Shown one piece after another: positions 1,662 to 7,765 of a stretch of 64,000 nt of DNA. The stretch is from positions 1-64,000 of the forward strand of contig CAIZRK010000013.1 of the NCBI GenBank assembly GCA_903935355.1, read 5' to 3'. The number at the start of each line of letters is the position of its first letter. Position 1 is the stretch's first letter. Position numbers and translations under genes: made by a program. The stretch comes from an uncultured beta proteobacterium (GTDB lineage Bacteria > Pseudomonadota > Gammaproteobacteria > Burkholderiales > Burkholderiaceae). Under the pieces are notes generated by a model that did not search any database, was not told the DNA's origin, and saw nothing but the letters and a program-made list of their open reading frames with translations.

Positions 1662-1952
1662 TTACTTCTGTACTACAGCCATGATGTCTTCTTCGCGCAT
1701 GACGAGAAGCTCGTCGCCATCGACCTTGACTGTTTGACCAGCATATTTGCCAAACAGCACGCGGTCGCCTACTTTGACGTCTGGTGCATTTAACTTACCG
1801 CTGTCATCACGCTTGCCTGGACCTACTGCCAAAACTTCGCCCTGGTCAGGCTTTTCAGCAGCAGCGTCAGGGATGATGATTCCAGATGCAGTTTTTGATT
1901 CTTGATCTAAACGCTTGATGATTACGCGATCATGTAAAGGACGCAGATTCAT
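1662..1952 (-). CDS. groES: Co-chaperonin GroES, 10 kDa subunit
   Basis: The 96-residue protein is of normal GroES length and starts [14 protein letters not shown]. It has the GIIIPD mobile-loop region near residues 24-29 and ends in the expected ILAVVQ-like beta strand (IMAVVQK). It caps the GroEL ring. A strong Shine-Dalgarno (AGGAGAAGGA) sits directly before the ATG. It is the first gene of groES-groEL and is the direct target of the CIRCE element upstream. Confidence 0.98.
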
Positions 1953-2062: not shown

Positions 2063-2089
2063 TTAGCACTCGTGTCTAGGGAGTGCTGA
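2063..2089. promoter_or_regulatory. CIRCE element (HrcA operator) of groESL
   Basis: The sequence reads TTAGCACTC, then nine bases, then GAGTGCTGA. The known CIRCE consensus is TTAGCACTC-N9-GAGTGCTAA, so there is one mismatch in 18 defined positions. It lies between groES and its TATAAT box, covering the predicted transcription start, which is the usual place for HrcA repression. The hrcA gene is not in this window. Confidence 0.93.
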
Positions 2090-2141: not shown

Positions 2142-2219
2142 TAAGGACTTAACGCCTTCTTATAATGGGGGAATGGCGCGTAGGATAATTCCTACAGATA
2201 AATCCGCCTTAAGTCCTTA
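2142..2219. repeat. 11-bp perfect inverted repeat enclosing a 6-bp hairpin, upstream of the EAL-like gene
   Basis: TAAGGACTTAA (2142-2152) is exactly complementary to TTAAGTCCTTA (2209-2219). Between them lies a second perfect hairpin, GTAGGA-TAAT-TCCTAC (2180-2195). A TATAAT box at 2161-2166 also lies in between, so the element could be a pair of operator half-sites around a promoter or part of a folded leader RNA. It covers most of the untranslated stretch 2098-2271 if translation starts at 2272. Confidence 0.5.
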
Positions 2220-2271: not shown

Positions 2272-3126
2272 ATGAGCCCGAAATCCCGGCTTTATACGCT
2301 TGTAAAGACATGGAAGAACAAACCCTTCCAAGAGGTTCGCGATGCCTGTGGCGAACCTTGGCTTGGCTTAAGTAGCCAAGCCCGTGAAGAACATGAATCC
2401 TGGTCCAAGCGCCAAGCGATTAGCAACGAACCCATTTTTAACGCTGAGGGAACAAAACTGACCGGCTCTTTATTTAGACCTTTACTCGGCTCTAACGATA
2501 CGCAGCTTTTGCGTTTATTTATGGAAGGCCTAGATACGATTTCCTACTGGTATCGTAGCGGGCGATTTATTCCTGGTATTTTGTCAGTGCCTAGCCGCGT
2601 GATGTCATCAAGCCATTGCATTGATGCGCTTAGCGATCTCATTCTTAACTCTCGCCTACCAGTAGGCTTAGTAAATCTAGGTATCTACCAACTGCCAGAT
2701 CCTAATTTGGAAGATGCCTGTAAAGAAGGTTTATTACGCCTTAGAAGACTAGGGGTGTTAATCCATTTAATACAATTTTCTGGTACGACCCAAGAAATAC
2801 GTTGGTTAGAAGAAATGCAATTAGAAGCCATTCATCTAGATATTAGTCAGTTTCGCTCCAAAGAACTTCCTACTGATCTAATTTTAGAGACGCAAAAAAT
2901 GCAAGCCCAAATTTATGCGAGCAATATCACCCTTGTTAGGGACTTAGAAAATGCCGCACTGTTACATGTGGACCATAGTTATGGCGGACTTATGATGCCG
3001 CCAGTCAGTCGACACCAAATCTTACACATTAGCGACAGTCGTATCGCTAAAGCAATTTTTTCGCTGCACCCACAAAAAACCACAATGGAGATAAACAATG
3101 AGAATGCGCGTGATGTTGGTAGATGA
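2272..3126 (+). CDS. Degenerate EAL-domain protein, BvgR-like
   Basis: From 2272 the product is 284 residues. This start has GGAGA six bases upstream; a longer frame opens with GTG at 2098 but has no good ribosome site and would run through the inverted repeat. The chain follows the EAL fold in order: EPIFNAEGTKLTG in place of the Q-P-I strand, a segment like SVNLS (GILSVPSRV), then HLIQFSG where DDFGTG is expected, then LDISQF for K-I-D-x-F. The EAL glutamate (now SLF), the DDFG aspartates and the EGVE glutamate are all missing. It should therefore not cleave cyclic-di-GMP and more likely acts by protein contact. Its end overlaps the response regulator start by 29 bp. Bordetella BvgR, next to bvgAS, is a known EAL-family regulator. 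Confidence 0.7.
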   Translation: MSPKSRLYTLVKTWKNKPFQEVRDACGEPWLGLSSQAREEHESWSKRQAISNEPIFNAEGTKLTGSLFRPLLGSNDTQLLRLFMEGLDTISYWYRSGRFIPGILSVPSRVMSSSHCIDALSDLILNSRLPVGLVNLGIYQLPDPNLEDACKEGLLRLRRLGVLIHLIQFSGTTQEIRWLEEMQLEAIHLDISQFRSKELPTDLILETQKMQAQIYASNITLVRDLENAALLHVDHSYGGLMMPPVSRHQILHISDSRIAKAIFSLHPQKTTMEINNENARDVGR

Positions 3127-3721
3127 TCATCCAGCTATGCTGATGGCACTAAAAGGTATGATGCAAGATGAGTTATTTTTTGAAATAGCAGGAGAGGCTA
3201 AGAATGGAGAGGAATGCCTAAAAACCATTAAGAAGGTGAACCCTAATATGGTGATCCTTGATATAGACATGCCAAAAACAGATGGTTTTGATGTGATTCG
3301 GCGCATCGCAATTATGTACCCACATATTGGGATATTAGTCCTATCTAGCCTAGAAGAATCTGTCTATGGAGGCAGAGTTCGCTCGCTAGGTGCCCATGGT
3401 TTTGTCAACAAAACTGCGGGAACAAAAGTAATTTTATCCGCCTGTGTTGCAGTCTCTCAAGGCTATAGCTTCTTTACACATGGTAAAAAAGGGAATACCT
3501 CATTAAGCGATCACGACAAGTTGGCGCAAATTTCTGATCGAGAATTACAGGTCTTGAAATACCTTGGTAAAGGAAATAACAACCAGCAGATTTCTGACTT
3601 ACTACACATCAGTCATAAAACGGTTGCCACCTATAAGACGCGAATTTTTGATAAGTTAGGCATTAATAATATTGCCGATCTTATCTTGTTCTGTCGTATT
3701 AATCGCATTTTCGAGGGCTAA
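3098..3721 (+). CDS. Response regulator, NarL/FixJ (BvgA/EvgA) type
   Basis: The 207-residue protein has an N-terminal receiver domain with the acidic pair D9-D10, the phospho-acceptor D55 in LDIDMP and the conserved lysine in the NKTAG segment near residue 105. A LuxR-type helix-turn-helix follows from about residue 143 (SDRELQVLKYL, then ISHKTVATYKTRIFDKL). It should bind DNA as a dimer once phosphorylated by the kinase encoded 8 bp downstream. The ATG at 3098 is preceded by GGAGAT. Translation is probably coupled to the EAL-like gene, whose last 29 bp it shares. Confidence 0.9.
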   Translation: MRMRVMLVDDHPAMLMALKGMMQDELFFEIAGEAKNGEECLKTIKKVNPNMVILDIDMPKTDGFDVIRRIAIMYPHIGILVLSSLEESVYGGRVRSLGAHGFVNKTAGTKVILSACVAVSQGYSFFTHGKKGNTSLSDHDKLAQISDRELQVLKYLGKGNNNQQISDLLHISHKTVATYKTRIFDKLGINNIADLILFCRINRIFEG

Positions 3722-3729
3722 CACTGAGC

Positions 3730-6171
3730 ATGCATCGATTCATTTTGAATGGTTCGCTAATTTTCTGCATATTAACAGGGGGAGTGGCACACTCAACCCC
3801 CTTTAACAAGACGGAAATGGAATGGATCGATGCTCATCCGGTAGTTCGTTTTAGCATTCATGAAAAATATGCCCCTTATCTTAATGCTCCAAGCCATCCT
3901 ATTGAAGGTGGCGTTTTTCTATCACTACTCTTGCAGTTAGGAAAAATCACTGGCCAGCAATTTGTTCCTCGATGGAGAAAATCTGACCATGAAGGTCTCA
4001 AGCAATTAGCCAATGGCGAAGTAGATTTCATAATTGATCCGCCAGAAATTACTGATCGGGTGCTCCAATTTGGCTCACTATCTGAATCTATTTTTTGGGG
4101 ATACGATGTCATCGTTACCACCAAAGAAGCTACTCCGATTAACCCATTAAAAGTAGCCTATTTCGACCGAGGGTTAGAAAACCCTCCCTTACCCAGTAAA
4201 GCACAAAAAAAGGCTTTGACTTACCCAGACCAAGCCTTCCAATCGCTCTTAAAACAAGATATTGATGCCTTGGTAATGCCCATCCGTTTGGCTCATCAAC
4301 TGATTAAGCGCTCTGCTGGGACGAATCTTCAGGTTGATGGTTTATATAATCGCAAACCTTTTGCTTATCGCTGGCTAATCTCCTTTGAAGATGCTCCCCT
4401 ACACCATGTTCTTGAACATTTTCTCAAAAGACTTGACCCCATAGAATCTCGTAAGTTATTTGCATTTGATGAGATTGACCCTATTGCTCCGCCCCCTAAT
4501 CCTCCATCGATGGTCTTGCCCTGGGGTTTTTCTCTGCTCCTATTTATTACAGGTGGGTGTATTGCTTGGCGCTTACAAAGAAAATATTGGCAACAAAAAC
4601 AAAAGACGGTTGAATTAATCGCCTCAAAAGAAATAGCAGAAAAAGCGAATGCAGCCAAATCTGCCTTTTTAGCAACGATGAGCCATGAAATCAGAACGCC
4701 CATGAACGCAATTTTAGGAGTTCAGGAGTTACTGCTTAATAGCGCCCAATTTCCAAATAATGAAAAGCCCTTACTAAAAAGTGCACATGCCTCAGCAGAG
4801 TCACTCCTTAGCATGCTCAATCAAGTACTGGATCTGTCAAAAATTGAGGCTGGCAAACTGACTCTCAATTTAGAACCATGTAGTCTTGAATGTTTAATTA
4901 CAGATATTCATTGCGCATTCTCAACCGTTGCCGATAAGCAAAAATTAACTCTCCATACTTCGACCGATCCTAGGATCGCTGAAGTGTTAATGATGGATTC
5001 TTTACGCCTAAGACAAATCCTGCAAAATCTGCTGAGTAATGCTATTAAATTTACTGATCAAGGCGACATCTATTTTTCTATTACTGTTCTCGCTGATGAT
5101 CATGCTGGGCAACTCATCGAATTTAGAGTAATCGATACGGGAATTGGTATGGGCACGGAACAAATTGCGCTTGCACTTCAAGCCTTTGAGCAAGTTCCAT
5201 CTGCGGCAGAATTGCGTAGCAGCGAACAACAAAGGGGTACAGGCTTAGGCTTAACAATTACCAATCATTTGATCGATTCTATGAATAGTCACCTCTACTT
5301 TGAAAGTGCCCCAGGTTTTGGAAGTAATGTCCATTTTTCTGTTGCCTTCCCAAGAACTAGTGTTGCTGCGATACGTACTTTGGGAGAAAAAGCTTTTGCT
5401 TCACCCCTCAGAAAGTTCATGCGCAAAAGGGGTTCTCAGGGCGAAGGCCTCATTCAGGCATTAGTAGTTGAAGATCATCCTGCGAGCCGACAAATTCTTT
5501 CTCTGCAACTAGAAGTCTTAGGTATCCAAGCAGCGGTCTGTGAAGATGCCAACAGAGCACTGCAATTACTAGGAGAACGTCGTTTTGATCTCATGTTGAC
5601 TGATCATTCCATGCCAGGAATGCAGGGTTCTGAGTTGGCAAAAAAAATACGCAGCAAGGGACATCGCGATCTCATCATTATTGGCGTAACCGCAGATATT
5701 TATGCATTAGATGCACGTCATCAATTTTTATCCGCCGGTATGAATGGGGTACTCATTAAGCCCTTAAGCCTGCAAACCCTTGAAAATGAACTCTTGCGCT
5801 ATTTCATAGCAAAGGATGTCGATCTAGAGAAAGAGACGGCAGAATACTCATTTGAAGCTTTCTCAAATTTATTAAGGGATGACCCCAAGCAAATACACCT
5901 CATCCTAGATGAAATCCAGCAGGTACACGATGATGTACTACTGGAATTAAGCTCACCTGAGATGCCCCTATTAGATGATATGCAATTTAAAAGCCTAGTT
6001 CATAAGGTAAAAGGTGGTGCTCAACTCATCAATGCCAAGTCACTCATTGCCTCCTGTCAGGAGCTTGAAAAGGATGGGGACCTAAGAGCCCAGATTCAAC
6101 AATTTTCCGCCCTATTAATAGCAGAGAATCGGAGAATTACCGAATATAAAGAGAAGAGCTCCGGCCAATAA
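3730..6171 (+). CDS. Hybrid sensor histidine kinase, BvgS/EvgS type, with one periplasmic binding domain
   Basis: The 813-residue protein has a signal or anchor segment (residues 1-22), one periplasmic solute-binding-like (SBP_bac_3/Venus-flytrap) domain (about 30-250), a transmembrane helix (261-283), a HisKA domain with H319 in SHEIRTP, an HATPase domain (N437, DTGIGM from 469, GTGLGL from 503), a receiver domain with D625 and a C-terminal HPt domain with H758. This gives a complete His-Asp-His relay to the partner regulator. Bordetella BvgS has two flytrap domains and a PAS domain; here one flytrap is present and no PAS domain is visible between membrane and HisKA. The ligand cannot be told from sequence. 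Confidence 0.92.
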   Translation: MHRFILNGSLIFCILTGGVAHSTPFNKTEMEWIDAHPVVRFSIHEKYAPYLNAPSHPIEGGVFLSLLLQLGKITGQQFVPRWRKSDHEGLKQLANGEVDFIIDPPEITDRVLQFGSLSESIFWGYDVIVTTKEATPINPLKVAYFDRGLENPPLPSKAQKKALTYPDQAFQSLLKQDIDALVMPIRLAHQLIKRSAGTNLQVDGLYNRKPFAYRWLISFEDAPLHHVLEHFLKRLDPIESRKLFAFDEIDPIAPPPNPPSMVLPWGFSLLLFITGGCIAWRLQRKYWQQKQKTVELIASKEIAEKANAAKSAFLATMSHEIRTPMNAILGVQELLLNSAQFPNNEKPLLKSAHASAESLLSMLNQVLDLSKIEAGKLTLNLEPCSLECLITDIHCAFSTVADKQKLTLHTSTDPRIAEVLMMDSLRLRQILQNLLSNAIKFTDQGDIYFSITVLADDHAGQLIEFRVIDTGIGMGTEQIALALQAFEQVPSAAELRSSEQQRGTGLGLTITNHLIDSMNSHLYFESAPGFGSNVHFSVAFPRTSVAAIRTLGEKAFASPLRKFMRKRGSQGEGLIQALVVEDHPASRQILSLQLEVLGIQAAVCEDANRALQLLGERRFDLMLTDHSMPGMQGSELAKKIRSKGHRDLIIIGVTADIYALDARHQFLSAGMNGVLIKPLSLQTLENELLRYFIAKDVDLEKETAEYSFEAFSNLLRDDPKQIHLILDEIQQVHDDVLLELSSPEMPLLDDMQFKSLVHKVKGGAQLINAKSLIASCQELEKDGDLRAQIQQFSALLIAENRRITEYKEKSSGQ

Positions 6172-6211: not shown

Positions 6212-7765
6212 ATGGCAATGCGTAAGTGCTATTTACCATCTTTATCCTTGATTTTCTGCCTGCTGTGCACTCTAAGCGCTCCAGTGATATCTGCAGACCT
6301 CATCTCCCAAGAATCGGCTTTGCAGTATATTCCGAAGGCAGTTGCATTGAGTCTGGATAAGAACCAAATCCCTAAAGAATCCATTAGCATTTCTGTGGTG
6401 GAGATTGAACTAGGGCGCCCTGGAAAAAGTATCAGCAAAACACAGGTAGATTGGCGCGCAGACGCAGCTATGAACCCCGCCTCAACCATGAAGATCCTAA
6501 CGACTTTAACTAGCTTAGATATGCTCGGTCCGCAATATCGATGGCGCACTAATCTATTTACCGATGGCGTCATACGTCAAGGATTACTTAAAGGCAATAT
6601 TTATCTCCAAGGCACGGGGGATCCTAAGCTGATTCCTGAGGAATTAGCGAAGATGATGAAGGCATTGAAAAACTTAGGCATCGGGAAAATAGATGGTAAT
6701 TTAATTTTTGATCGGAGTGCTTATGCCTCTAGTGTGATGGAACACAATACGATCGATGGCGAATCTCTGCGTGCCTATAATGTCCCGCCCGATCCTCTGC
6801 TCTATGCATTTCGAACGATCTCCTTTGTACTTGGAAAATCCCGCACAGCAGATTTTATCGACATTAGTTTTACCCCGGCACTCTCACAACTTAAAGTGCT
6901 CAATCAAATGCAATTGATTGATACACCCTGTGATAACTGGAAAACTGGCATTCGCTTTAACTTAGATCCCGAAGCTGGTAATACAAGTACCACTCAATTA
7001 CTCAATGCCCAGTTCTCGGGTGTATTCCCCAGTCAGTGCAGAAGTGTTAACTACAATGTGGTTGCCTTAGATGCTAATACCTTTTTAACTCAAGGATTTA
7101 CTGCAGCATGGGAACTAGCAGGGGGGAGCTGGGTAAAGCCTCCTACTGGTAAAGACGGGGTGGTGCCCATTACCGCAAGACCCCTGCTTCAATTTGAAGG
7201 AATCAATCTTGCAGATGATGTGGTAGATATCAATAAGTACTCCAATAATGTCATGGCTCGTCAATTATTATTGACCTTAGCCTTAGAAAAAATGGGAAAA
7301 CCTGCCACCACTGAAAATGGTAATCTAGTAATTCAGAGTTGGCTTAAACAAATGGGGATGCAATTTTCAGGTCTAGTCATTGAGAATGGCTCAGGTTTAT
7401 CACGCAATGAAGCTATTTCTGCTGAGCATATGAATGACCTCTTAGTACTTGCACGCAATCTTCCTATAGCTGAAACGTTTTACAACAGCCTACCTATTGC
7501 CGGTACCGATGGCACTATGAGAAATCGACTCATGACTCAGTTGAGAAAATTTCTTCATCTCAAGAAAAAGCCTGAGGCTAGAATTAAAACTGGCTCACTA
7601 GCCGATGTCAGAGCCATCTCTGGCTATGTAATTAGTAAATCAGGAAAGATGTACGCTGTAACGTCATTCATAAACCATCCCAATGCTTGGAGAGGTTTAG
7701 AGGCTCATGATCAACTACTCACGTGGTTAATTGAGGATGGTCCAGAACCTAAGCAAGCTCGCTGA
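6212..7765 (+). CDS. dacB: D-alanyl-D-alanine carboxypeptidase/endopeptidase, PBP4 family (peptidase S13)
   Basis: This periplasmic penicillin-binding protein trims peptidoglycan peptides. The 517-residue product has a signal peptide (cleavage likely after the VISA stretch near residue 28) and the three active-site boxes: S91-T-M-K94, S344-N-N346 and K459-T-G461. The S13-specific insertion between the first two boxes fits the length. A second in-frame ATG at 6218 is possible. The last 55 bp overlap the end of convergent tsaC, so both C-termini are encoded by the same DNA. Confidence 0.93.
   Translation: MAMRKCYLPSLSLIFCLLCTLSAPVISADLISQESALQYIPKAVALSLDKNQIPKESISISVVEIELGRPGKSISKTQVDWRADAAMNPASTMKILTTLTSLDMLGPQYRWRTNLFTDGVIRQGLLKGNIYLQGTGDPKLIPEELAKMMKALKNLGIGKIDGNLIFDRSAYASSVMEHNTIDGESLRAYNVPPDPLLYAFRTISFVLGKSRTADFIDISFTPALSQLKVLNQMQLIDTPCDNWKTGIRFNLDPEAGNTSTTQLLNAQFSGVFPSQCRSVNYNVVALDANTFLTQGFTAAWELAGGSWVKPPTGKDGVVPITARPLLQFEGINLADDVVDINKYSNNVMARQLLLTLALEKMGKPATTENGNLVIQSWLKQMGMQFSGLVIENGSGLSRNEAISAEHMNDLLVLARNLPIAETFYNSLPIAGTDGTMRNRLMTQLRKFLHLKKKPEARIKTGSLADVRAISGYVISKSGKMYAVTSFINHPNAWRGLEAHDQLLTWLIEDGPEPKQAR

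Follow-up and report, generated by a model that had tools for sequence, protein, structure and literature searches.

The locus considered here lies in a window of 64,000 nucleotides (positions 1 to 64,000 of contig CAIZRK010000013.1, assembly GCA_903935355.1) and is numbered by window positions. The source genome (G000) is 1.80 Mb in size and 94.1% complete. Three genes on the forward strand form an apparent operon. Its head gene (2272..3126) encodes a 284-residue EAL-fold protein without catalytic residues, the second (3098..3721) a NarL/EvgA-type response regulator of 207 residues with D55 at the phospho-acceptor position, and the third (3730..6171) a hybrid sensor kinase of 813 residues. 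The kinase is composed of a periplasmic Venus-flytrap region (residues ~18-245) and the HisKA (309-375), HATPase (423-539), REC (578-687) and Hpt (749-793) domains. The start codon at 2272 is backed by a conserved MxPKSRLY motif and a ggag-type ribosome site among relatives, and the frame upstream of it contains stops in many of them. The EAL-like alignment search returned 73 loci in Polynucleobacter records, some labelled only as betaproteobacterial or Burkholderiaceae metagenome-assembled genomes (MAGs), and the source genome belongs to the same genus.

The EAL-like protein of the window, searched alone, matched nothing in Pfam or NCBIfam and reached an E-value of 0.23 at best against PDB; relatives were therefore needed for family assignment. 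Together with these the TIM-barrel fold of the EAL superfamily (PF00563) was recognized, so that the profile assignment suggested in the original prediction holds for the protein among its relatives but not for the single sequence. The loss of the catalytic motifs is confirmed: 12 of the 14 catalytic and metal-binding positions of the phosphodiesterases are changed, the alignment being uncertain in the EAL-motif region. Among the residues missing from the window protein are the Q of YQP, both D of DDFG, the K of KID and the Q of QGY. The stretch ahead of the barrel is only about 50 residues long, and no Response_reg match was found in the window protein or in 24 members of the family. Being enzyme-shaped but having no enzyme site, the protein probably acts by binding a partner. 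An amphipathic N-terminal helix was dropped as a candidate, as its moment is no higher than in many shuffles. Beyond the genus, 398 genomes of the family and 399 of the order were searched by profile; the best match reached 1.2e-15, and most matches lay within long open frames. A tblastn search of plasmids gave no match. A short EAL protein from outside the genus (G299), considered and rejected, has intact EAL motifs and neither a regulator nor a kinase beside it.

The closest solved relative of the regulator is EvgA (5f64, 2.4e-32), in agreement with the NarL-type assignment made earlier, and the region of the recognition helix is similar to that of EvgA-type proteins; the typing was made against EvgA. 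The window regulator averages 82.1% identity to 13 relatives, which share 94.2% among themselves (78 pairs). For the EAL-like, kinase and flanking genes the same comparison differs by about 2 points at most, the acceleration being lineage-specific and confined to the regulator. In the kinase, HisKA, HATPase and REC exceed the Pfam cut-off and Hpt falls below it. While the first 270 residues alone matched the BvgS flytrap weakly (0.013), the flytrap as a profile of 12 sequences matched EvgS (9ilw) at 6.6e-11 and BvgS at 8.9e-7. The kinase thus combines a flytrap sensor with the HisKA, REC and Hpt domains, as expected of a BvgASR system. Tandem flytraps with a PAS domain were not found; there is a single flytrap-sized region, and no PAS family matched the window kinase up to an E-value of 10. 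For the 16 most divergent loci (L065-L080), kinase matches begin only beyond the flytrap part, so that the EAL-like gene and the regulator persist in loci that have not retained the flytrap. The kinase open frames are 526-588 residues long in 11 of these loci, and the other five involve a contig end, a split, an N stretch or a start misassigned by the script.

Homologues of the EAL-like gene are present in 171 of the 186 genus genomes, including 139 of the 144 of high quality. The order groES (reverse), EAL-like gene, regulator, kinase, dacB, sua5 and purK, where the names of the neighbours are those that we presume, recurs in most of 80 loci, taken one each from 80 other genomes of the genus. 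A survey of co-occurrence placed the regulator and kinase downstream of the EAL-like gene in 147 of 153 loci, as tallied by script with many genomes counted twice. The six exceptions are a single contig end counted twice (L110, L240), a single frame-shifted copy counted twice (L111, L235), L109 and L074; in L111 the regulator is actually the next gene, L109 belongs to a decaying genome, and the kinase gene of L074 contains an N stretch. From the stop of the EAL-like gene to the regulator start the spacing is -7, -4 and -1 bp in 3, 8 and 31 of the 68 measurable loci, respectively, and +2 to +42 bp in the remaining 26. The 29-bp overlap emphasized at first is present in the window but is not the conserved state. 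It originates from an A-run (3074..3079, forward strand) that is one base shorter than in relatives such as L115 and L118 and shifts the frame of the C-terminal tail of the EAL-like gene; the missing base could reflect either a genuine indel or a mistake in the assembly. The early suggestion that the three genes are made together is supported by the genus-wide adjacency and the short or negative spacing.

When the sequences upstream of the operon were aligned for 23 loci, one of which was too short, a CIRCE element emerged and, nearer to the gene, GTAGG-N4-TTCCTAC. In the window this is the inverted heptad GTAGGATAATTCCTAC (2180..2195, unstranded, with a 14-bp core at 2181-2194), the predicted autoregulatory operator of the response regulator. 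Exact GTAGGNNNWTTCCTAC occurs in 132 of 186 genus genomes, compared to 19 of 186 for the reversed control, and its sole match in the source genome is the operon-promoter site. Within -110 to -76 of 70 EAL-like promoters drawn from the 80 compared loci, the best match to TAGGAAATTTCCTA falls at -91 in 37; 27 promoters have at most two mismatches and 28 more have three, the site of the window having two. Among 3,712 random 260-bp windows from the same loci none came within two mismatches and 1.0% within three, and for 18,983 random 34-bp windows, which offer 21 start positions as against 34 in the promoter range, the figures were zero and 0.09%. Judged by its sequence, a BvgA-type inverted-heptad operator precedes the operon. 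Inverted TTTCCTA heptads are described as typical high-affinity BvgA sites in the cited passages (PMC4314077).

A looser operator search of the source genome gave 54 matches versus 95 in the reversed control and therefore yields no regulon by itself. Of the seven near-matches besides the two conserved sites, five are inside genes, one is at a gene start and one is 112 bp upstream of a presumably IscR-like gene. A further exact match to the core lies within a gene (L254). Elsewhere, eight extra exact sites (L321-L328) are found at or just past the 3' end of a gene that we take to be ligase-like, near the next gene. In a few divergent genomes (L312, L314; L313, L318, L329) exact sites precede two other genes. 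One encodes a CNNM/CorC-type membrane protein and is divergent from the gene of a TonB-dependent receptor; the other encodes a short protein without a Pfam match.

Extra exact sites in other genomes also pointed to an HTH_17 gene (Pfam) divergent from sucA, which was found in 27 of 28 genomes searched. In the source genome this gene lies outside the window (L361:1435-2252, on G000:C39), and its site, at G000:C39:27034-27047, reads TAAGAAATTTCCTA, as in six other genomes. In all 27 HTH_17 promoters the best site within 260 bp falls at -86 to -101, with 0, 1, 2, 3 and 4 mismatches in 5, 7, 8, 5 and 2 loci, and the consensus shows that the operon and HTH_17 promoter sets share further bases. The C-terminal half of the HTH_17 protein appears to resemble a degenerate receiver. 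The sites might belong to the HTH_17 regulator, which would control itself and the operon, leaving the response regulator with other targets. This would fit the constant position in the 27 promoters, as well as four genomes (G012, G030, G066, G122) in which a site near -91 is absent from the EAL-like promoter but the HTH_17 promoter has one (with three mismatches in G066). We nevertheless consider such ownership unlikely, because the sites have the form of BvgA operators, the HTH_17 site of the source genome is identical to the sequence given for the primary site of BvgA at the fhaB promoter (PMC7250471), and the response regulator resembles EvgA in type and in the region of the recognition helix. 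The HTH_17 promoter of the source genome also has a second TTTCCTA exactly 22 bp downstream of the site. A second heptad at 22 bp, the spacing of BvgA dimers, was rejected as evidence, as it is not general: at this offset the average number of mismatches out of 7 is 4.66 in EAL-like promoters and 3.52 in HTH_17 promoters, the overall means being 4.92 and 4.98.

No match to EAL, GGDEF, HD_5 or PilZ was found in the source genome. Across the genus, GGDEF is present in 128 of 186 genomes (104 of the 144 high-quality ones), PilZ in 51 (45 above the cut-off), and EAL in 67 above the cut-off or 119 at E <= 0.001, some of these EAL matches being the EAL-like gene itself. In 53 of the 186 genomes (39 of 144) the EAL-like gene is present with no GGDEF match, and it therefore persists where no synthesis of cyclic di-GMP (c-di-GMP) is detectable. 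These numbers bear on the proposal, also made for BvgR, that the EAL-like protein is a c-di-GMP receptor that has kept the pocket, binds the nucleotide without cutting it and signals to the regulator or kinase. Such a role would be in line with the retained fold, the wide occurrence of GGDEF proteins and the R of LLRW, retained in 17 of 24 aligned proteins where the alignment is uncertain. It is improbable given the active-site losses listed above, a source genome with no GGDEF, HD_5 or PilZ match, and the 39 high-quality genomes that keep the gene without GGDEF.

In six pairwise comparisons the ratio of nonsynonymous to synonymous substitution rates (dN/dS) of the EAL-like gene is 0.06-0.12; the kinase has values of 0.08-0.12 and the regulator of 0-0.055. 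A slowly decaying phosphodiesterase relic, kept only by its place before a regulator whose translation depends on it, would fit the short overlaps, which could create such a dependence, and the breaks seen in single genomes with an open regulator and kinase, but is hardly to be expected at such dN/dS values, with 47 residues invariant among 40 EAL-like proteins and reading frames still intact in divergent clades at 24-30% identity. Six genomes (L102, L105-L109) have a fragmented EAL-like gene. Five of these also have a broken kinase gene, and L109 has lost the regulator as well, a decay that would fit endosymbionts; in L105 (G032) both remain open.

Taken together, the locus probably encodes a positively autoregulated phosphorelay of the BvgAS/EvgAS type that brings its own non-enzymatic partner protein with an EAL fold. 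The fold, the loss of the active site, the gene order, the phosphorelay domains and the conserved sites at two promoters are observed directly. In the proposed scheme the flytrap kinase would sense a periplasmic signal, and phosphate would pass from His to Asp to His and on to the regulator through the domains and residues present. The phosphorylated regulator would then bind the inverted heptads ahead of both the operon that encodes it and the HTH_17 gene, and activate the two. The three genes would form one transcript, from which the EAL-like protein would be translated just before the regulator. Presumably neither making nor breaking c-di-GMP, it would bind a protein of the pathway and tune, most likely restrain, the output, as BvgR and RocR3 do.

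Several observations weigh against this scheme. The regulator evolves fast in the source genome (82% versus 94%) and the EAL-like gene does not, giving no sign of tight co-evolution. Nine of the promoters listed have no operator near -91 (L065, L066, L071, L072, L075-L077, L079, L080), the two worst HTH_17 sites (L355, L356) do not stand out from shuffled sequence (45 and 60 of 200), and the sites could be targets of the HTH_17 protein itself. At 94.1% completeness a c-di-GMP gene may have been missed; moreover, 118 of the 171 carriers of the EAL-like gene have GGDEF, so that most carriers could have c-di-GMP and binding is possible there. Finally, five genomes combine an open regulator and kinase with a broken EAL-like gene, disrupted by nonsense mutations in G085 and G025 (a MAG), by a frameshift in G111, by several breaks in G032 and, in G041, by about 18 kb of inserted DNA that splits the operator and promoter from the gene, whose start is lost. 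The EAL-like gene is therefore accessory.

The fold is familiar and the kind of system is known, but here it takes the form of a genus-wide variant with a dead-EAL gene heading the operon and a Bordetella-type operator, apparently independent of c-di-GMP in some members. More tentatively, at somewhat below even chances, we suggest that a BvgR-like protein can work wholly without c-di-GMP: streamlined freshwater bacteria, some without detectable c-di-GMP enzymes, would keep a Bordetella-type phosphorelay, a near letter-for-letter operator and a dead-EAL protein dedicated to partnering the regulator or kinase, with their output going to a very small regulon made of the operon itself and the HTH_17 regulator beside sucA. 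With the gene directly before the regulator and kinase, and some genomes without a detectable c-di-GMP enzyme, this reading of BvgR becomes testable in free-living freshwater bacteria. BvgA-type operator sequences are also extended to two promoters, both conserved genus-wide in bacteria that are not known for virulence. Among the matches listed from the open-licence literature on Polynucleobacter, there was no paper on the locus; the one listed paper that contains both Polynucleobacter and BvgS deals with Cupriavidus (PMC2864759).

The comparison with Bordetella bvgASR, central to the original prediction, stands for the non-catalytic EAL protein accompanying a flytrap phosphorelay kinase and an EvgA-type regulator of the NarL kind, and for the inverted-heptad operators at two promoters. 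It does not extend to the gene arrangement or the sensor: in Bordetella bvgR is convergent, downstream of bvgS and has its own BvgA-bound promoter, and BvgS carries flytraps in tandem as well as a PAS domain, whereas here the EAL-like gene comes first and is co-directional, and the kinase has one flytrap and no PAS match. Bordetella also has c-di-GMP enzymes; in the source genome no such enzyme was found. BvgR itself is described as missing 12 of 13 active-site residues and still regulating (passages in PMC11537037), and excerpts of a 2025 review name its mechanism, as phosphodiesterase, c-di-GMP effector or protein partner, an important open question (PMC12805831). In Pseudomonas, the Roc systems (RocS1-RocA1-RocR; RocR3) similarly encode an unorthodox kinase, a NarL-type regulator and an EAL protein together, and overproduction of RocR3, with a site thought to be compromised, still lowers output; unlike the window protein, however, RocR and RocR3 carry a receiver domain and are themselves response regulators. 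RocR is a phosphodiesterase, and rocA1 is divergent from rocR-rocS1 (PMC12051241). Environmental relatives, Cupriavidus and B. petrii, have BvgAS-type systems (BvgSA), some with kinases that have no periplasmic part, like the divergent Polynucleobacter clades, but the cited passages mention no EAL-like gene and describe HPt as a separate protein in two (PMC2864759). E. coli EvgAS provides the closest solved relatives of both the regulator and the flytrap, yet the EvgS chain was matched twice, in accordance with tandem flytraps, and the window kinase has one. We know of no EAL partner of EvgAS. YdiV is a degenerate EAL regulator that binds protein without catalysis, with a different partner, and to our knowledge neither YdiV nor BluF is encoded beside a phosphorelay kinase. 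In BluF the EAL fold likewise serves protein binding without catalysis, again with other partners.

As to the surroundings, an Rfam scan of the window gave one tRNA and nothing else. The divergent upstream neighbour (1662..1952, reverse strand) is presumably groES. Between it and the operon lies a CIRCE element, the HrcA operator (2063..2089, unstranded), with one mismatch to TTAGCACTC-N9-GAGTGCTAA, which we assume to be the consensus; up to three mismatches were tolerated in the search, and at that tolerance 3 of 100 window shuffles also gave a match. The element is about 180 bp ahead of the EAL-like start, and heat-shock control could touch both groES and the operon. In L112 and L330 (G041), as well as in L111, L121, L122, L130 and L142, groES was not found in the approximately 3 kb fetched ahead of the operon, and the gap may be a recurrent place of insertion. 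Downstream, a gene that we take to be dacB-like (6212..7765, forward strand) starts 40 bp past the kinase and flanks most of the 80 compared loci. In one divergent clade (L067, L069, L070, L073, L078, L080) dacB is more than 2 kb behind the kinase, and in L069 and L073 the genes in between are presumably short-chain dehydrogenase-like and lactate-dehydrogenase-like.

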